Positions 4,168 through 12,141 of a stretch of 26,371 nucleotides of DNA are shown piece after piece. The position numbers were made by a program, and so were the translations under genes. How positions within the stretch are numbered: position 1 is the first letter of the stretch; each line of letters begins with the position of its first letter. The notes under the pieces were generated by a model. The model made no database searches, was not told where the DNA came from, and saw nothing but the letters and a program-made list of their open reading frames with translations. The stretch comes from a virus: the IMG/VR virus record IMGVR_UViG_3300042467_001331, positions 1 to 26,371 of that record; one strand, 5' to 3'.

Positions 4168-4216
4168 TTCATCGTCAGAGGTGGGGACAGCGGTAAGCGG
4201 TTCATCGTCAGAAGTG
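4168..4216. repeat. Short direct repeat spanning the primase/helicase stop and next leader
   Basis: TTCATCGTCAGA followed by a purine and GTG occurs at 4168-4183 and again at 4201-4216, 33 bp apart with one mismatch. The second copy includes the stop codon of the primase/helicase gene. On the minus strand each copy contains ACGATGAA, giving two rival ATG codons. It looks like a local duplication at a gene border. Confidence 0.6.
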
Positions 4217-6964
4217 ATCCATCGATGGGACGGGCGAGGCGGCTGCGCGGGGCTGCGGGGCTGTTTCGCCTCGCTGGCCGACCGTTTCGCGACCGAGGTC
4301 GTCCGCGCGGGGCTGCGGGGCTTGCGGGGCTGTTTCGCCACGCTGGCCGACAATTTCTGGCGCAGCGCTCACGCCACCCTGTGGATAACTTTTTTCGCGT
4401 GGGGTAGGGGGTTCAAGCCCCGCAAGCCCCGCGTCTTTCGCGTCATCCCTGCTCACAGCGTCGCCCTCGCGCGGGGCTTCAGCAAGCCCCGCGCTCTGCA
4501 TGGCGACCGAACGCTTCGTCACCGAGTAGATGACGACTCGTCGCCGGTCGCGAGGCATCTCGACAAGGTGCATCCCGCTCGCCCCGTAGTGCCGTCCGGT
4601 GCGCTTGCGGAGCGCCTGGCCGAGCCGCTGAGTGAACGATCCCTTGCCCCACTCCCCCGCGAGTTCGTCGGGAAGCGACTCGAGGATGCGGTCCCCGGTG
4701 TACGGGTCGCGCATCTTGGCCACCAGGTCGCCGACGCTGAGCGACTCCTCGCCGACCTGATCGAACCAGGCGCCGAGGAACGCTTCCCATGCCCCCGCTT
4801 CACGGTCGGCCGATGCGTGGAAGTCGGCAAGGTTGCCGAGGAAGTCCTTCACCCCGGCGTGATCGAGGATGCCGCCGACGGTGCGCACCCAGCGCGAGTA
4901 GTCGCCCATCGCTGGTGCGTTGGTCGCCATCGGCCGACCAGCCACCCACCATGACCGGATGATGGTGCACAGCGCATGCAGCAGTTCGCCACGGTTGTCG
5001 CTCACCCAGCCACCGAGGTCGGCGTGCTTGAAGCCGGTACGCAGCCACGGCGACGCCTGGCGGGCGTCGAGCCGGATGCGGTAGCAGCGTCGTGCGAGGT
5101 CGCCGCCGACGTCGATGTTGTTGCCCGTGCAGGCCCAGGTCGCCCGGTTCGGCACGGTCACCATCTCGGATCGGCCGAGCACTCGGCCCTGCCATGAGTC
5201 CGCGGTGAGCACCGCGGCGAGCGTGGGGCTCTTGATGACGCCCTCGACGTTGTCGAAGATCAGCATCGTCGATCCCGCCATGAGTGCAGCCGTGACCTTC
5301 TTCTCCAGCTCTTCGTCGCCGGTCGGCCACGCCATCAGCGCAGCGGCCCGGCCGATGGTGATGATCGCCGCCACCTTGACCAGCAGCCCCTTGCCGGTGC
5401 CCGGCTCTGGTGCGTCGACGAGCGCCATCGGCACCTGGCCGACGATGGCTCGCACCAGCGGCGTCAGGAACAGCGCCCAAGCATTGGCCCGGTCGGCGGT
5501 CGAGTCCCACGGGAAGTCGCACAGCGTCTCGTCGATCAGCGCCACTGCCGCGGCGAGTTCCGCGGCCGTCGGTTCGTCGCTCACGCCCGGGTACGGCTTG
5601 CCTCGGTGCCAGTGGAACAGCCGGGTCGAGCCGTCGTAGCCGTGGCCGATCTGGAACGTGCCGTCGGGGCGTAGCACCGGCAGTTCGACGACACCGGCAA
5701 GGGCAGGCATGTCCCACGCGCCCGAGGCAACGATGGACGCCGCCACATCGCCCGGCGGTGACGTGCTCGAATGGTCGCCGTCCTTGTTGACCCGGTACCA
5801 GTTGGCGGCGTGGGCGAGTTGCAGCCTGACGTGCTCGGGGCGCAACGCTTCGATGAGCGGCCGGTCATCTTCGTCTTGGCGCAGCCGGCACAACTGCCCG
5901 GCGCGAACGAACACGGCCGGCGGGTCGTTGGCTTCCTGCAGGGCGAGCATCGCTTCGGCGACGACCTCGTCGTGCTGGCGGCCGTTGTGCACGATCCCGC
6001 GCCGCGGGCGTCGGCCCTCGACTTCGGCCCTGGGGTCGGTGAACGGGTCGCCGAGGTCGATGCGCTGCTTCTCGCCGTGCTCCTTGGCGGCCTGGTAGAA
6101 GTCGCCGCCGTGCTCCATCGCCACATGAAAGCCCCACAGGGTGACCATCTCGGTGGCGGTGAACGGTGCCCAGTTCGACGAGAACACCTTGAGGCATTCG
6201 GTGCCGCCGTAGTACAGGCTCGCCGATGCGCCGTCCTTCGGGCTCTTGCCCGGCCGGGTCCATAGCTCGTAGTAGCCGCCACCGCTGTCGGTGTGCTGCG
6301 AGTGCAGCGTCGCCCCGTACCTGGTGAGTTCGTCGGCCCAGGTGGTGTTCTGCGCCCAGATGTCGCCGGGCTTCATCTCGCCGTCGATGCGGGCGATCCG
6401 CTCGCGCCGGGCTTCGTTGTTGCCGACCGGGGCCTGCAGCAGGTCGATCAGCCACTGCGGTGCGTCGGCGACGGCCTGGCCCGACATCGGGTCGTGCTCG
6501 ATGTCCCACTGGTAGGCCTGGCCGGTGGTGGGGTGGATCGTCGGGGCGGCCAAGACCTGGCCGTTGATGCCACGCACGTCGATGCCGACGCCGAGCACGC
6601 CGCTCGCCGAGTTGTGGATCTCGCCCGTCTCCGGCCAGCGAAGGTAGATGTGGCGACCGTTGCCACCCGTGATCGCTTCGACGGTGTCGGGCAGTCGGCC
6701 GTACCGGGCCTCGAGCGCCACCAGCGAATCGTCGCCACCGTCGCGCGGGTCGATGTCGATGACGAACAGGCCCGAGGCTGGCCCGGTGGCGATACCGACG
6801 CCGTGGGTCGGGTTGGCGGCGTAGTAGCGCCGAATCCGCTCGGGGTCGGTGGTGGCCTTCGTCTCCCATTCGGCGATGCCCTTGGGGTACTTGTAGCCGG
6901 TGGGGATCGGCACGACTCGCCAACCGTTGGCGGCGTACCAGAGTGCGTGATCGAGTGTGGTCAT
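4208..6964 (-). CDS. Bifunctional primase-polymerase / superfamily 3-like helicase
   Basis: 918 aa replication protein. The N-terminal 180 residues form a Prim-Pol (archaeo-eukaryotic primase) domain: NGWRVVPIPTGYKYP, GVGIATGPASGLFVIDIDP (catalytic D70 and D72), GGNGRHIYLRWP (H105) and GIDVRGINGQVLAAP. A linker region follows. The helicase/AAA+ half has Walker A APEPGTGKG (about 518-526), Walker B TMLIFDNV (566-573), a sensor-like TWACTGNN (609-616) and RRCYRIRL (arginine finger region). It therefore likely primes and unwinds phage DNA. The ATG at 6964 overlaps the upstream CoiA-like gene's stop as ATGA. The last 80 or so residues are low-complexity with a repeated GQRGETAPQ, and the DNA under them holds origin-like repeats. 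Confidence 0.92.
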   Translation of the reverse strand: MTTLDHALWYAANGWRVVPIPTGYKYPKGIAEWETKATTDPERIRRYYAANPTHGVGIATGPASGLFVIDIDPRDGGDDSLVALEARYGRLPDTVEAITGGNGRHIYLRWPETGEIHNSASGVLGVGIDVRGINGQVLAAPTIHPTTGQAYQWDIEHDPMSGQAVADAPQWLIDLLQAPVGNNEARRERIARIDGEMKPGDIWAQNTTWADELTRYGATLHSQHTDSGGGYYELWTRPGKSPKDGASASLYYGGTECLKVFSSNWAPFTATEMVTLWGFHVAMEHGGDFYQAAKEHGEKQRIDLGDPFTDPRAEVEGRRPRRGIVHNGRQHDEVVAEAMLALQEANDPPAVFVRAGQLCRLRQDEDDRPLIEALRPEHVRLQLAHAANWYRVNKDGDHSSTSPPGDVAASIVASGAWDMPALAGVVELPVLRPDGTFQIGHGYDGSTRLFHWHRGKPYPGVSDEPTAAELAAAVALIDETLCDFPWDSTADRANAWALFLTPLVRAIVGQVPMALVDAPEPGTGKGLLVKVAAIITIGRAAALMAWPTGDEELEKKVTAALMAGSTMLIFDNVEGVIKSPTLAAVLTADSWQGRVLGRSEMVTVPNRATWACTGNNIDVGGDLARRCYRIRLDARQASPWLRTGFKHADLGGWVSDNRGELLHALCTIIRSWWVAGRPMATNAPAMGDYSRWVRTVGGILDHAGVKDFLGNLADFHASADREAGAWEAFLGAWFDQVGEESLSVGDLVAKMRDPYTGDRILESLPDELAGEWGKGSFTQRLGQALRKRTGRHYGASGMHLVEMPRDRRRVVIYSVTKRSVAMQSAGLAEAPREGDAVSRDDAKDAGLAGLEPPTPREKSYPQGGVSAAPEIVGQRGETAPQAPQPRADDLGRETVGQRGETAPQPRAAASPVPSMDHF
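4247..4494. other. Putative replication origin: nine GCGGGGCT iterons with a DnaA box
   Basis: The 8-mer GCGGGGCT occurs at 4247, 4255, 4307, 4315, 4324 and 4471 (each the first base), and its complement AGCCCCGC starts at 4416, 4425 and 4485. Copies 4471 and 4485 form a perfect 11-bp inverted repeat (4469-4479/4484-4494) with a 4-nt loop. Between the groups lies TGTGGATAA at 4380-4388, a perfect match to the DnaA box TTATCCACA on the minus strand, followed by a run of six T. The block sits inside the 3' end of the primase/helicase gene. Iterons, a DnaA box and an AT tract next to a replication initiator are the classic parts of an origin; function here is inferred. Confidence 0.55.
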
Positions 6965-8136
6965 GCTGCATTCGCCTTGTTCTGTCGGTGCGAGGTGTGC
7001 ACCGTTCCGTTCATCAGTGCGCACGGGACGCAGTCGGACTTGCAGCCACCGCGGTCGCCCCAGCGGGTCGACGTGCAGTCGCCGCAAGAGCAGCGCATTC
7101 CCTGCAGCTTCGACCAGTCGGTGAAGTCGGCCGCCGGAAGCGGCGTGATCGTTGCGACCAGATCGACCCTGGCCAGCCTCTCTATCTCCAGGCGGCGATG
7201 CTGTGCGGCTTCGAGCCTTGCCCGGACCTCCATCTTGAGGCGGCTGGCCTGTTCTTCCTCAAGCCTTGCTGCCTGCATCTCCATCTCAAGGCGCTGAGCC
7301 TGTTCGACCTCAAGCCTTGCGTCACGCAGACGCTCCTCGTGCCGACCCTGGTGCAGTTCCTTGGTGGCCCACTCCACCGCCGGCCGATGGCACGTCTGAT
7401 GCAAACTCATCCACGTTTCGACGTCCATCAGTTGCGCAGCGAACCGCTTGGCCTGGTGACGTTCACCGACGGTCTGCATCAGCGGCGGGGCGCCGAACAC
7501 GGCACCGGCACTGACCACCTTCACGAACTCGAGCAGGTCGGAGGCGACGCGCGTGCGCCAGCCCGAGTAGGCCGTCGGCCGTTCGGTGCAGTCCCGCTTC
7601 ATCGCGTCGAGACGCCACACGCCGTCGGTGCCGCAGTCCAGGTAGATCGGTCGCTGGTGCGCCAGCAGGGCGCGCCGGGGCATCGCCCAGCGGAACACGT
7701 GCGGCGCGCTCGGGTTCGTGATGTTGAACCACTCGTGCGCGTACCTGGCGTCGTAGATCCAGCACATGTCGCCGTAGGTCGCTTCGCGTGACGTGATCGC
7801 CTCCTCGGACATCACCTTCGTCTGCGCCTCGACGACCCGGCCGTCGGCCAGGACGACGTCGGCGCGATGCAAGCGGCCGTTGGCGGCGATGTAGCCGGGC
7901 ACCTCGGGCTGGGCGCCGAAGTGTTCGAACAGCATCTTCACTTCCTTGTGCCAGTCGCCTTCGCTGTTCTCGGTGTCGGCGACGGGGCAGTCGCTGCCTG
8001 GCTCGTGCGCCCAGTGCGAAACGACCTGGCCGTTGCCGGGCTTCGCGATCATCAGGCAGCCCTTGTAGCAGCGGCCCCTCATCCCGAGTTCCGTTGCGGC
8101 GACGAGCTCGCCCTCGACGAGTGCGTAGTGGGCCAT
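6961..8136 (-). CDS. CoiA-like competence/nuclease-family protein with coiled coil and Cys-rich tail
   Basis: 391 aa. The N-terminal half matches the CoiA-like pattern: a Cys-containing finger (MRGRCYKGCLMIAKPG), HWAH (residues 41-44), GDWHKEVKMLF (about 60-70) and a PD-(D/E)XK-like core RADVVLADGRVVEAQ with D93, E103 and Q105, then WIYDARYAHE. Residues about 270-330 are a long charged coiled coil (RLEMEMQAARLEEEQ...). The C-terminus has a six-Cys cluster (RCSCGDC, GGCKSDCVPC), probably zinc-binding. CoiA-family proteins act in recombination of incoming DNA and are presumed nucleases. In this phage, next to the primase/helicase, a role in replication-linked recombination or branched DNA processing is plausible. 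Junctions are TGATG upstream and ATGA downstream. Confidence 0.8.
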   Translation of the reverse strand: MAHYALVEGELVAATELGMRGRCYKGCLMIAKPGNGQVVSHWAHEPGSDCPVADTENSEGDWHKEVKMLFEHFGAQPEVPGYIAANGRLHRADVVLADGRVVEAQTKVMSEEAITSREATYGDMCWIYDARYAHEWFNITNPSAPHVFRWAMPRRALLAHQRPIYLDCGTDGVWRLDAMKRDCTERPTAYSGWRTRVASDLLEFVKVVSAGAVFGAPPLMQTVGERHQAKRFAAQLMDVETWMSLHQTCHRPAVEWATKELHQGRHEERLRDARLEVEQAQRLEMEMQAARLEEEQASRLKMEVRARLEAAQHRRLEIERLARVDLVATITPLPAADFTDWSKLQGMRCSCGDCTSTRWGDRGGCKSDCVPCALMNGTVHTSHRQNKANAA

Positions 8137-8186: not shown

Positions 8187-8329
8187 TGGTTACGTCCTTC
8201 CATGACGTGATCCGGGCCCCCGACCGTCGCAAGCGGTGCGGGGGCCATCTGGTTTTCGGGTAACGCACTGGTGACCCTAAGGGCGGCGTCGGCAAAACCG
8301 GACAGGGATCTGCGGAGCGGCTCACTCAC
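8183..8329 (-). CDS. Possible 48-aa protein bridging the WhiB gene and the leader peptide
   Basis: A frame starting at GTG 8329, which overlaps the WhiB stop as GTGA, runs 48 residues (MSEPLRRSLSGFADAALRV...HVMEGRNQ) and ends overlapping the next ATG as ATGA. The two perfect stop/start overlaps fit the operon's style. However, the 3' half is formed by the GC-rich hairpin at 8215-8246, and the protein is not recognisable. It could be a coupling device rather than a functional protein. A start at another GTG four bases downstream is out of frame. Confidence 0.4.
   Translation of the reverse strand: MSEPLRRSLSGFADAALRVTSALPENQMAPAPLATVGGPDHVMEGRNQ
8215..8246 (-). terminator. GC-rich hairpin, twin of the one at 2623
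   Basis: Arms GGCCCCCG and CGGGGGCC (8 bp) extended by ACCG/CGGT with one unpaired G and a 7-nt loop. Same architecture, same bulge side and same distance (about 28 nt) from the following ATG as the hairpin at 2623-2651. No U-tract. Could be an RNA-processing or attenuation element. Confidence 0.5.
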
Positions 8330-8712
8330 GCCGCACCCCTTCCCTCGTTCTTCCGTCGCGCCCGGTAGTCGCGTCGCGCCTCGTTCACTGCTGTCTTGCA
8401 CGGCTGGCACGCCTCCTCGCCGTTGCGGTGGTGCCGCCAGTACCCGGCGGCGGTCCCGCAGGCGTCGCCGCCGTGGCGGTACTTGCGCCGCTGCCCCGGT
8501 GTCATGCCGCCGACGACCATGACCGGCGACGGGTCGTCCGGTTGGCGCAGCACCCACGCCCGGCACCGGTCGAGGTGCTGGCAGTCGGCGCAGATGGCGA
8601 GCCCGGCCCGTTCCTGCCTGGCGCGCTTGTGTTGCGGCCGCCACGGGTCGATGCACATCTCGTCGCCACGGTCGGTGCAGGCGAGCTGCGCACGCAGTTC
8701 GGCCCAGTTCAT
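8326..8712 (-). CDS. WhiB-family regulator with extra C-terminal Cys/His domain (copy 1)
   Basis: 128 aa. WhiB proteins are actinobacterial Fe-S transcription regulators that act with the principal sigma factor. The four cluster cysteines are visible: C12 (LACTD), C41 and C44 (ICADC) and C50 (DRCRAW). The usual GxWGG turn is altered to VVGGMTPGQRRKYR (about 66-79). After it comes a second unit, HGGDACGTAAGYWRHHRNGEEACQPC (about 80-105), with paired Cys and His typical of a small zinc knuckle. The start is ATG 8712, overlapping the next WhiB gene's stop (ATGA). The loss of the canonical turn suggests altered sigma-factor or DNA contacts. Confidence 0.83.
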   Translation of the reverse strand: MNWAELRAQLACTDRGDEMCIDPWRPQHKRARQERAGLAICADCQHLDRCRAWVLRQPDDPSPVMVVGGMTPGQRRKYRHGGDACGTAAGYWRHHRNGEEACQPCKTAVNEARRDYRARRKNEGRGAA

Positions 8713-9134
8713 GCCGCCCGCTCCCGCTTGGCCGCCTTGCCGACCTTCACATGGAAGGCGTGCGCCTCACGGCACGACTGGCACGGCCGCTCGCCGCGAC
8801 GGCGATGCGCCTGGGCCCCAGCATTGCTGCCGTGGTTGATCGGCTTGAGCGTCGTGCCCGGCTTCGGCCCCTTGCGGCCACCCGCCCGCCGGCGCCTCTC
8901 CTGCCGCATCTGCCGACCGGACAGACCGCCCCAGATGCCCTCGGTCTCGCCGACCTCGATGGCGAACTCCAGGCACTGCTCGGCCACCGGACAGGTGGCG
9001 CACACCGCCTGGGCGTTGCGAGCGGTGAACGAGTCGCCCCGCTCAGGGAAGAACAGGTCCGGGTCGAGCCCACGGCAGGCAGCGAGGGTGCGCCAGTCAG
9101 CGGGAACAGTCCCGATTTGGTGCTGTTCACTCAC
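8709..9134 (-). CDS. WhiB-family regulator with extra C-terminal Cys/His domain (copy 2)
   Basis: 141 aa, the more canonical of the pair. Cysteines C20, C45, C48 and C54 sit in AACRGLDPDLFFP and VCATCPVAEQCLEFA, followed by the signature GIWGGLSGRQMRQERRRR (about 66-83). An added tail, NHGSNAGAQAHRRRGERPCQSC (about 100-121), matches the extra domain of the neighbouring WhiB gene. The start is GTG 9134, overlapping the upstream stop as GTGA. Phage WhiB proteins can repress host whiB genes or redirect host sigma factor and affect superinfection; that is family knowledge (for example TM4 WhiB), not shown here. Confidence 0.93.
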   Translation of the reverse strand: MSEQHQIGTVPADWRTLAACRGLDPDLFFPERGDSFTARNAQAVCATCPVAEQCLEFAIEVGETEGIWGGLSGRQMRQERRRRAGGRKGPKPGTTLKPINHGSNAGAQAHRRRGERPCQSCREAHAFHVKVGKAAKRERAA

Positions 9135-9558: not shown

Positions 9559-9722
9559 TTCAGCCCCTCCGCTCGCCGTTTGGCGTCTAGCTCGGCCCAT
9601 AACTCGTTCCGCTGTGCAATCAACTGCTGCACCTGCGCATCCCGCAGGGCGAGGTCGCGGCGCATCTGCTCGATGCCGTCGACGAGTTCGGCGGCGAGGC
9701 GTTGTACGTCCTTGCGCTTCAC
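9555..9722 (-). CDS. Small coiled-coil protein (55 aa)
   Basis: Starts at GTG 9722 (MKRKDVQRLAAELVDGIEQ) and is one continuous predicted amphipathic helix (MRRDLALRDAQVQQLIAQRNELWAELDAKRRAEG). GTGA overlaps at both ends. The gene directly follows the RuvC-like gene. Function unknown; likely a dimerising adaptor. Confidence 0.65.
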   Translation of the reverse strand: MKRKDVQRLAAELVDGIEQMRRDLALRDAQVQQLIAQRNELWAELDAKRRAEGLK

Positions 9723-10180
9723 CCCAGCCCCCTCATCCACCAGTGAGCGAGCAGCGCAGCGTCGGCCCGCCCGTCGTCCTTGACACGGTCGAACAGGTCG
9801 TCGAGCGGCCACAGCCGTTGCGCCGCCAGGCGGTGCGCACCCTTGTCACTGCCGACGCCGAGGTCTTTCGTCCACCGTTGCGGCGTGACGTAGGTGACGG
9901 GCCGGTCGAGCCCGACCAGCACGCCTTCGATGACGCCGCAGCCACGGCCGAACGAGAACGCCGATGTGGCGCCGGAACCCTGCACGCCCTGCACGTCCTC
10001 GACGACGACCATGACGGCCGGGCCGATGTCGACGAGCAGGTCACGCAGATGCCGGGCCGAGATGCGCTTCTTGCCGCGCACCTCGATCGTCGGCATGTCC
10101 CAGACGAGCACCTCGCCGGCGGCGTTGACGACAGCGATGGCGCCGGCGACGCCGGGGTCGATGCCGATGGTGAGGGTCAC
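9719..10180 (-). CDS. RuvC-like Holliday junction resolvase
   Basis: 153 aa starting MTLTIGIDPGVAGAIAVV, the RNase H-fold signature with first catalytic acid D8. VMVVVEDVQGVQGSG supplies E61, and KDDGRADAALLAHW the late acids (D140 and neighbours), the RuvC arrangement. The central FSFGRGCGVIEGVL and TPQRWTKDLGVG match phage and RuvC-like resolvases. It should cut branched DNA arising in phage replication and recombination before packaging. The start is GTG 10180, overlapping the upstream stop as GTGA; the long upstream frame is Arg-rich shadow. Length is slightly below bacterial RuvC. Confidence 0.9.
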   Translation of the reverse strand: MTLTIGIDPGVAGAIAVVNAAGEVLVWDMPTIEVRGKKRISARHLRDLLVDIGPAVMVVVEDVQGVQGSGATSAFSFGRGCGVIEGVLVGLDRPVTYVTPQRWTKDLGVGSDKGAHRLAAQRLWPLDDLFDRVKDDGRADAALLAHWWMRGLG

Positions 10181-10365
10181 TGCGCCCACTCCACGCCTTC
10201 GAGGCTGTCGGGCACGCCGACCAAGCCGTGCTCGGCGAGCAGGTCGTTGATCCGGTTGGCGGTCGCACGGTCGGGGCAGGCGATCACACCGGTCGGGCCG
10301 ACGACCACCCATGCACCGACGTGATGCACGGAGTGGGCGAAGGCCACCGGGTAGTCGCCGGTCAC
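10177..10365 (-). CDS. Small hypothetical protein (62 aa)
   Basis: Starts at GTG 10365 (MTGDYPVAFAHSVHHVGAW) and continues VVVGPTGVIACPDRATANRINDLLAEHGL. The pattern of a small beta unit followed by a helix resembles short phage proteins of unknown role. GTGA overlaps at both ends place it firmly in the operon between the HTH-like gene and the RuvC-like gene. I can assign no function. Confidence 0.68.
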   Translation of the reverse strand: MTGDYPVAFAHSVHHVGAWVVVGPTGVIACPDRATANRINDLLAEHGLVGVPDSLEGVEWAQ

Positions 10366-10841
10366 AGTGCTGCCGCCGCTGCGTCTCGGGCGGCCTGGTG
10401 GTTGACGGCGGGCCGGTCGGCGTCGATGAGGCCCTGTTCGCGGCAACGCTTCACCATCCACTGAGCCGTGGTGGCGTGCACATCAAACACGCAGGCCAGC
10501 CACGGAGCTCGCCGGTCGCCAGCGAGGTCAGCATTGCCGATCTCATGGGCGACGATGTGCCAGTCCCAGCGGCCTTCCGGCGTGCGGCCGTAGGGCGGTT
10601 CGGGGTCGTCCTCGGGAGCGTCGTTGCTCGACACGAACGACGTCGGCAGCACGACAGCCTCGGGCACGTCGATGCGCAGCACCGTCCGCTCCTCCTCGGC
10701 GATGACGTCCATCAGTAGCGAGTCGGCGTCCAAGCCGAACGCCTCGATGGCGGCACGGACGAACGACATGCGGTGCTCGATCTCGCTCGCCTCGGCCTCG
10801 AGCAGGCGCAGCGCCTGGCCGAGGTGTTCGACGGCGGTCAC
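10362..10841 (-). CDS. Hypothetical protein with a C-terminal helix-turn-helix-like segment
   Basis: 159 aa starting at GTG 10841 (MTAVEHLGQALRLLEAEAS). N-terminal helices are followed by a variable acidic middle (SSNDAPEDDPEPPYGRTPEGRWDWHIVAHEIG). The C-terminal part, WLACVFDVHATTAQWMVKRCREQGLI, has the length and spacing of a helix-turn-helix recognition unit. It may be a phage DNA-binding regulator. Start chosen by the GTGA overlap with the upstream repeat protein. No family recognised with certainty. Confidence 0.72.
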   Translation of the reverse strand: MTAVEHLGQALRLLEAEASEIEHRMSFVRAAIEAFGLDADSLLMDVIAEEERTVLRIDVPEAVVLPTSFVSSNDAPEDDPEPPYGRTPEGRWDWHIVAHEIGNADLAGDRRAPWLACVFDVHATTAQWMVKRCREQGLIDADRPAVNHQAARDAAAAAL

Positions 10842-11536
10842 TGGGCCACCTGCAGCATCTGCTCGATCGCCTTGGTGATGATCACCGGCTCCGGTGTCGT
10901 CGGCGTGAACCCTGCCCATTCGCACCACACATCGACGGCCCGGTGGGCGAGCTGCAAGCGCTCGGCGGCGTAGGCGGCGTCGGCGGCGGCATAGGCGGCG
11001 GCGGCATAGGCGGCGGCGTAGGCGGCGGCGTAGGCGTTGGCGGCGTAGGCGGCGGCGGCGGCGGCATAGGCGGCGGCGTCGGCGTCGGCGGCGGCATAGG
11101 CGGCGGCGGCGATTCTGCACTGCTTGGCGGTCACCGTCCCATCGCACCAACCTTCTGCCGCTTCGATCGCTGCCAACGCCTCAGGCGCTGACGTCAGATG
11201 CAGCACCTGCCGGGCCTGATCGGCGGCAACCCGCACCCACACCCGCTGACGCTCCAACTCGGTCAGCGGATGGGTGCCGGTGCCGACGATGCGGTGCGCC
11301 AGGTCGAGCACCTTCACCGAGCATGTCGGGCACAACAGGTCGCCGTCACGGTGCGTGCAGATCGAGTCGTTCACCCGCTGCACGATCCGTGCCAACACCC
11401 GGTCAGCGCACGCCGGCAGGTCGGTGATCGTGCTGTCGCCGGACTCCCACGACACAACGTTCATGGCGCAGCCCTTGCCGCTGCCCGCCTGATGCGAGCC
11501 GACGGCGAGCCGGAGGGGATGGTCGACGGCGCTCAC
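10838..11536 (-). CDS. Conserved actinophage-type protein with Ala/Tyr/Asp repeats
   Basis: 232 aa. The N-terminal half (SHQAGSGKGCAMNVVSWESG, ITDLPACADRVLARIVQRVND, CTHRDGDLLCPTCSVKVLDLAHRIVG) is a pattern I associate with conserved phage proteins of unknown function; it carries CxxC-like cysteines. The C-terminal half contains about 50 residues made of AAAYAAADA-like repeats, then a helical end (LAHRAVDVWCEWAGFTP). GTG 11536 is taken as start because it overlaps the upstream stop as GTGA and retains the conserved N-terminal stretch; an internal ATG at 11464 would cut it. Similar Ala/Tyr repeats occur in Imm-5-like proteins, but an immunity role is not shown. Confidence 0.78.
   Translation of the reverse strand: MSAVDHPLRLAVGSHQAGSGKGCAMNVVSWESGDSTITDLPACADRVLARIVQRVNDSICTHRDGDLLCPTCSVKVLDLAHRIVGTGTHPLTELERQRVWVRVAADQARQVLHLTSAPEALAAIEAAEGWCDGTVTAKQCRIAAAAYAAADADAAAYAAAAAAYAANAYAAAYAAAYAAAAYAAADAAYAAERLQLAHRAVDVWCEWAGFTPTTPEPVIITKAIEQMLQVAQ
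10963..11110. repeat. GGC/GGCGTA microsatellite-like tract inside a coding gene
   Basis: About 150 bp built almost only of GGC, GTA/ATA and GTC units on the plus strand, encoding the Ala/Tyr/Asp repeats of the overlapping minus-strand protein. Units of 6, 9, 12 and 15 bases alternate irregularly, always in multiples of three, so slippage would change repeat number without a frameshift. Confidence 0.85.
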
Positions 11537-12141
11537 CACGGCTCCTCTGCGGGTGCGGCAGCGACGGTCGCCTTCGGGGCGTCGAGCGTGATAGCCGTGG
11601 CCTCGAGGTACGCCTTCTCGGCGGCAGCGATCGACGCAGCGTCGCTGCCCTCGACCAACTTCAGCGGGCCGTAGAAGCCGAGGGTGACGCCCTTCATGCG
11701 CAGCGCCACGACGTCGGCCTGGTCGGTGATCTGGCCACCGCGCAAGCCACCCTCGCTGTCGTATGCCTGCGCGTACTCGACGCTCAGGCGCAGTTCGTCG
11801 CCGACACGGATCGAGCCGTTGCGGTGGGTCTTGCGGGCCTCGATCCAGGCACCGAACCCGGCGCCCTTGAGGATGACGCGCACCGGCGTGCCAACGGCGG
11901 GCACCCACTGGTCGTCGCCTTTGCCGCACGGTGCGGTCGTGCCCTCCATTGCCAGGCCGTGCACGACGAGCTCCTGGCGGGCCTTGCCGGTCTTGGGGTT
12001 GATGACGTCGGCGCCGTCCTTCTTGATCGGGCGCTGCTCGAAGCGGACGATGGCGAGGCGGGTGCGCTCGCCGATCGCCGTGCGCTTCATTACCGGTGTC
12101 GTCGGGGCGTTGTTCCGGTCTTCGGGGATGTCGATGGGCAT
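11533..12141 (-). CDS. Hypothetical protein, candidate single-strand DNA-binding-like
   Basis: 202 aa starting MPIDIPEDRNNAPTTPVM, with a good ribosome site (AGGGAGA) upstream of the ATG. The middle looks beta-rich (TRLAIVRFEQRPIKKDG, QELVVHGLAMEG, GTPVRVILKGAGFGAWIEARK, GDELRLSVEYAQAYDS), compatible with an OB-like fold. The C-terminus ends in a short Ala-rich linker and acidic-aromatic tip APAEEPW, reminiscent of SSB tails. It lies beside a Cas4/RecB-like nuclease, where phages often place SSB or annealing proteins. The SSB idea is inference; there is no decisive motif. The gene has its own leader and possibly its own promoter. Confidence 0.72.
   Translation of the reverse strand: MPIDIPEDRNNAPTTPVMKRTAIGERTRLAIVRFEQRPIKKDGADVINPKTGKARQELVVHGLAMEGTTAPCGKGDDQWVPAVGTPVRVILKGAGFGAWIEARKTHRNGSIRVGDELRLSVEYAQAYDSEGGLRGGQITDQADVVALRMKGVTLGFYGPLKLVEGSDAASIAAAEKAYLEATAITLDAPKATVAAAPAEEPW

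Follow-up and report, generated by a model that had tools for sequence, protein, structure and literature searches.

What do two overlapping WhiB-like (Wbl) genes, each ending in the same additional C-terminal module, do for the phage that carries them? We addressed this question in a soil actinobacterial virus, an IMG/VR record of 26,371 bases that was analyzed as a whole and that we call the window. On its minus strand we found genes for a terminase large subunit, an HNH nuclease, exonucleases, an integrase, an endolysin and tail proteins, and judging by this gene content the virus is a tailed, probably temperate phage. The two WhiB-like genes sit amid the replication genes, as follows:

4208-7087, minus strand: Prim-Pol replication protein
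8326..8712, minus strand: copy 2, a divergent WhiB-like protein that shares the module of copy 1 (128 aa, ATG start)
8709..8712, minus strand: 4-base ATGA overlap between the stop of copy 1 and the start of copy 2, also found in L012, L017 and L208
8709..9134, minus strand: copy 1, a WhiB-like protein with a C-terminal module (141 aa, GTG start; orthologues L020-L031)
9719-10312, minus strand: RuvC-like resolvase

We take the host to be an actinobacterium, since the literature describes WhiB proteins as confined to Actinobacteria (PMC6282962) and to the phages of these bacteria. A search of 84,980 bacterial and archaeal genomes gave no relatives of copy 2 at the sensitivity used and hence no direct pointer to a host, and there were no near-identical phages among the phage records. 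Elsewhere on the minus strand, positions 6961-8136 encode a protein of 391 aa that is Cys-rich at its C-terminus and matched no family, and positions 10838-11929 encode a protein with a low-complexity Ala/Tyr/Asp repeat (AAYAAADAD...), the same part being covered by a match to phrog_3416.

A preliminary description of this DNA had reported adjacent WhiB genes sharing an in-frame C-terminal module, with GIWGG in copy 1 and MVVGGMTPGQRR in copy 2. We recovered both open reading frames at that place on the minus strand, with the two motifs as described; the residue ranges given there for the module are swapped between the two genes if the upstream one is meant by copy 1. Copy 2 is present in 18 related viral contigs, and wherever the contig was long enough and was checked, copy 1 is next to copy 2 or close by (the contig of L015 starts inside copy 2). 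The tandem is kept in relatives down to about 55% identity (L019 and L208), and L208, the most distant of them, retains the ATGA overlap and the adjoining Prim-Pol and RuvC genes. When 33 WhiB-module sequences were aligned, the only invariant columns were three cluster cysteines (CxxC/C), one glycine of the turn and the G, H, C and C of the module, the first cluster cysteine being almost so.

The two Wbl domains differ at the positions that contact the host sigma factor in known WhiB proteins:

8889..9095, minus strand: copy 1 Wbl domain, with Cys 20/45/48/54 and with W14, F28, F29 and GIWGG (W68) all kept
8482..8685, minus strand: copy 2 Wbl domain, with Cys 12/41/44/50 kept and MVVGGM replacing G[IV]WGG

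Copy 1 matched the Pfam Whib model (PF02467) with an E-value of 9.6e-22 and 77.8 bits, against a cut-off of 23.6. Its four cluster cysteines (C20, C45, C48 and C54) are invariant or nearly so across the alignment, its turn reads GIWGG at residues 66-70, and its AF2 model superimposes on 6ono_A with a Z score of 12.2 and an rmsd of 1.2 over 69 residues. The complexes of WhiB1, WhiB3 and WhiB7 with region 4 of sigma-A rely on aromatic residues; in WhiB3, F31A, F32A or W76A alone abolishes this binding, and the WhiB1 counterparts are F17, F18 and W60 (PMC10245118). Copy 1 retains every one of these residues, as F28, F29 and W68.

Regarding copy 2, the match to the same Pfam model lies just above the cut-off (E-value of 5.9e-5, 24.0 bits). 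Its C12, C41, C44 and C50 are invariant in the orthologues, and from the ligands present an Fe-S cluster is predicted in both copies. The turn reads MVVGGM in all orthologues, with only the GG retained; the protein has no Phe at all and carries V at the position of the W, and the FF pair and the W are missing in 12 of the 12 aligned copy 2 sequences. The surrounding DDPxPxMVVGGM segment is nearly invariant in orthologues down to 53% identity, and judging from this fixation in distant orthologues copy 2 is changed, not decayed, at the sigma-docking residues. A Foldseek search with its model gave WhiB3 and WhiB1 as best matches, with E-values of 0.01-0.1 and a TM score on the target of around 0.75. 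Copy 2 is a divergent Wbl homologue, best termed Wbl-related.

Both proteins continue into the module, whose consensus is (C/H)GT-x2-GY-x2-H-x3-GE-x2-C-x2-C followed by a helix-forming tail:

8772..8834, minus strand: copy 1 module core, residues 101-121 (HGSNAGAQAHRRRGERPCQSC), with H101, H110, C118 and C121
8398..8460, minus strand: copy 2 module core, residues 85-105 (CGTAAGYWRHHRNGEEACQPC), with C85, H94, C102 and C105

The module of copy 1 is an odd allele, with GSNAGAQ in place of the GTxxGY of its relatives and with the four metal ligands intact. The (C/H), H, C and C ligands are conserved over 27 diverse modules. AlphaFold models (mean pLDDT of 85 for copy 1 and 81 for copy 2) combine a WhiB fold with a separate module made of a short helix, the CxxC and a long helix, predicted to extend to residue 140 in copy 1 and, as a basic helix, to residue 125 in copy 2; structural matches to the WhiB halves include WhiB1 and WhiB3 in their complexes with sigma-A region 4. 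The module is probably a metal binder of roughly 40 residues and four ligands, the metal being most plausibly zinc. Frame noise or a lack of conservation would have undone the initial proposal, and neither was found: shuffling copy 2 200,000 times never produced the motif, and a module profile matched the record in exactly the two known places (E-values of 2e-17 and 2e-15). Chance as the origin of the module is rejected by the shuffles, the profile matches and the conservation in relatives.

None of the Pfam and NCBIfam models covers the module, a search by sequence gave no solved relative in the PDB, and we found nothing on it in the open literature; it is an undescribed phage element without a Pfam name. 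The fold comparison of the models listed almost only the WhiB half, so the module may still have a known fold. A strict DNA pattern for it found at least 119 stretches in viral contigs and only 38 in the genomes of 84,980 species, where the organisms titled were actinobacterial, bar one bin titled only ‘bacterium’. In the phylum of one pattern hit, the module profile matched 3 of 198 genomes, including the genome of that hit. The module is a mobile element that occurs almost exclusively in phages and prophages of actinobacteria.

Its identified partners act on DNA. Among 72 non-redundant module-bearing viral ORFs, the Pfam partners were Whib (22) and Endonuclease_7 (4), as well as HTH and HNH. 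The module also stands at the N-terminus of small-terminase-like proteins (L105, L115, L120, L259 and L264), a protein so annotated in phage EmiRose, and occurs in tandem arrays of two to five copies. From the ligands, the basic helix and these DNA-acting partners we infer that the module binds metal and DNA.

Several further arrangements were seen among the carriers. The N-terminal position on small-terminase-like proteins hints at a role in recognition of the packaging site. L112 and L095 are small proteins made almost solely of four or five tandem modules, and L060, L149, L151 and L202 are phage WhiBs that carry a pair of modules, with changed ligand spacing in the first, and that have GIRGG in place of GIWGG. 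In L130, L159, L230, L237, L246, L254 and L260, which are long WhiB-like or module-bearing proteins from phages and Streptomyces genomes, an HNH-like stretch (H.xWTG...CG...CVLPxHL) directly precedes the terminal module. Loss of the turn W is also common among other module-bearing phage WhiBs. An overall association of module carriage with loss of the W (P = 3e-5) was discarded, being confounded by how the sequences were found; the pattern-scan sample alone gave 13 kept and 17 lost with the module versus 7 and 4 without it, which is not convincing.

Comparison of the window with its close relatives revealed that the tails vary separately from the WhiB halves:

8709..8888, minus strand: copy 1 exchangeable tail, with local identity of 51-64% over much of its length in L008, L017 and L016 and flanks of about 90% or more
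8326..8484, minus strand: copy 2 exchangeable tail, with 61-65% identity in L017 and L018 versus 93-96% in the WhiB half

Between the window and near relatives, dS was 0.05-0.2 in the WhiB halves and 0.6-1.0 in the tails of several (exchanged) pairs, and the contrast in mismatches between WhiB half and tail gave Fisher P values from 5e-6 to 2e-16. Relaxed constraint was rejected as the sole cause of the variable tails, given that synonymous divergence also jumps. Related viruses swap the module as a unit. In copy 1 the highly similar DNA bounds the divergent stretch on both sides; the exchange is less clean in copy 2, because the DNA downstream of its stop is unrelated in all relatives, and it may be part of a larger replacement. 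Three tail types were distinguished for copy 1 (A, B and C) and three for copy 2 (a, a' and b). Since A/a, B/a, A/b and B/b were each observed, recombination of one module does not depend on that of the other. Besides, at its end, copy 1 of L017 has a patch of 37 bases, 35 of them identical to the end of copy 2 in other relatives, which suggests exchange between the two genes too.

The preliminary description had proposed that a fused gene was duplicated and then diverged. The genes are indeed fused; as for their duplication, the WhiB-domain tree puts copy 2 in a strong clade (100/97) with other phage WhiBs and not with copy 1, and an AU test did not reject copies 1 and 2 as a single clade (P = 0.70). 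Since modules move independently of the WhiB halves, sharing one is no evidence for gene duplication, and on these phylogenetic data a duplication origin is neither supported nor rejected.

The best explanation for the locus, to which as a whole we grant slightly less than an even chance, is that copies 1 and 2 are translationally coupled phage transcription factors, copy 1 a sigma-docking activator and copy 2 a DNA-binding non-recruiter, both retargeted by exchange of their modules. The Wbl domain, with its predicted Fe-S cluster, would decide whether the protein docks on the principal sigma factor of the host, while the small C-terminal module, probably a zinc binder, would read DNA. Copy 1 would most likely be tethered to sigma, with its module holding the DNA upstream of the -35 element in a manner analogous to the AT-hook of WhiB7, or to the separate WhiA in the case of WhiB. 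Copy 2 is likely non-recruiting because it lacks the sigma-docking aromatics and has the Fe-S ligands and the module; it would most likely bind DNA, or else copy 1, but bring in no polymerase, and so temper or oppose copy 1. One copy had been suggested early on to be a decoy or co-repressor; the altered sigma-binding turn is there in copy 2, and such a role would fit. Still, its loss of the W need not mean an antagonist, because that loss is common in other module-bearing phage WhiBs. Phage recombination that replaces the module and keeps the Wbl half would provide a new DNA target with docking unchanged.

An extension of this proposal, which we regard as doubtful, would make the module a portable DNA-specificity cassette of actinophages, set behind a docking Wbl domain in copy 1 and a non-docking one in copy 2, and also aiming nucleases and terminases. 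If so, the phage lineage would rewire an activator and an anti-activator independently. Among the regulators of actinobacteriophages, WhiB proteins are the most common, and WhiBTM4 is named as the only phage WhiB studied during infection (PMC8612146). The locus offers a natural pair whose sequence separates sigma docking from DNA reading, and its natural module alleles make the question of the DNA target directly testable by swapping.

Alternatively, copy 2 could be a Wbl protein retuned to another partner, such as an alternative sigma factor or some other protein, which it would dock through the DDPxPxMVVGGM segment, so that both copies activate different classes of promoters. The near invariance of that segment indicates constraint and speaks for this idea, which we nevertheless consider unlikely, as the complexes of WhiB1, WhiB3 and WhiB7 with sigma-A4 need aromatics that copy 2 lacks and the scanned genes of the window yielded no phage sigma factor. 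Improbable too is that both copies act like WhiBTM4, competing with a host Wbl of the WhiB2 class, blocking its promoter and disturbing septation and superinfection, with the module as an accessory tether. WhiBTM4 represses whiB2 and excludes superinfection (PMC6282962, PMC8612146), and phage WhiBs inhibit mycobacterial growth (PMC13148394); but WhiBTM4 is described as WhiB2-like, and a pair of genes that is conserved while its modules are exchanged points to targets differing from phage to phage rather than to one conserved host promoter. Least probable is a docking tag that recruits nucleases, small terminase and regulators to a single shared partner, a protein or RNA of phage or host: the module does occur on functionally unrelated proteins and in arrays of up to five copies, but every partner identified works on DNA, the length and basic charge of the helix fit nucleic acid binding, and fast exchange of alleles is less expected with one fixed partner.

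Returning to the activator and non-recruiter pair, its design can be set beside known systems. WhiB7 has a Wbl core docked on sigma and an AT-hook as a C-terminal DNA-binding appendage; the window proteins share the core and the appendage, putatively DNA-binding here, which is a four-ligand module of roughly 40 residues and not an AT-hook. With Wbl proteins of the WhiB1/WhiB3 type (PF02467; PDB 6ONO, 8CWT) they share the four-Cys motif and the fold, and copy 1 also the aromatic contacts with sigma-A region 4, but they have the extra C-terminal module, and copy 2 lacks the FF and the W of G[VI]WGG. WhiA-WhiB on Streptomyces RNA polymerase (PDB 8DY7, 8DY9) likewise combines a Wbl core, structurally matched by copy 1, with a DNA reader; in the window the putative reader is a different domain and belongs to the same protein as the Wbl domain. 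The WhiB-like families phrog_12112 and phrog_22267, which have a tail, both hold the module (27 of 27 module sequences tested match both), although they are named for WhiB only, with the module undescribed, and the module also exists without WhiB. Proteins annotated as WhiB-like in two cultured phages, Streptomyces phage mu1/6 and Arthrobacter phage ArV2, match the module as well. Mycobacteriophage LeBron has adjacent Wbl genes, gp77 without the W (W to R) and gp78 canonical (FF, GIWGG), but these carry no C-terminal module and do not overlap. Overexpressed gp77 is not toxic while gp78 is highly toxic (PMC13148394), a contrast that may parallel copies 2 and 1, although the phenotype could have other causes. 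Finally, the proposed cassette swapping at this locus can be likened to restriction systems, which swap their target-recognition domains.
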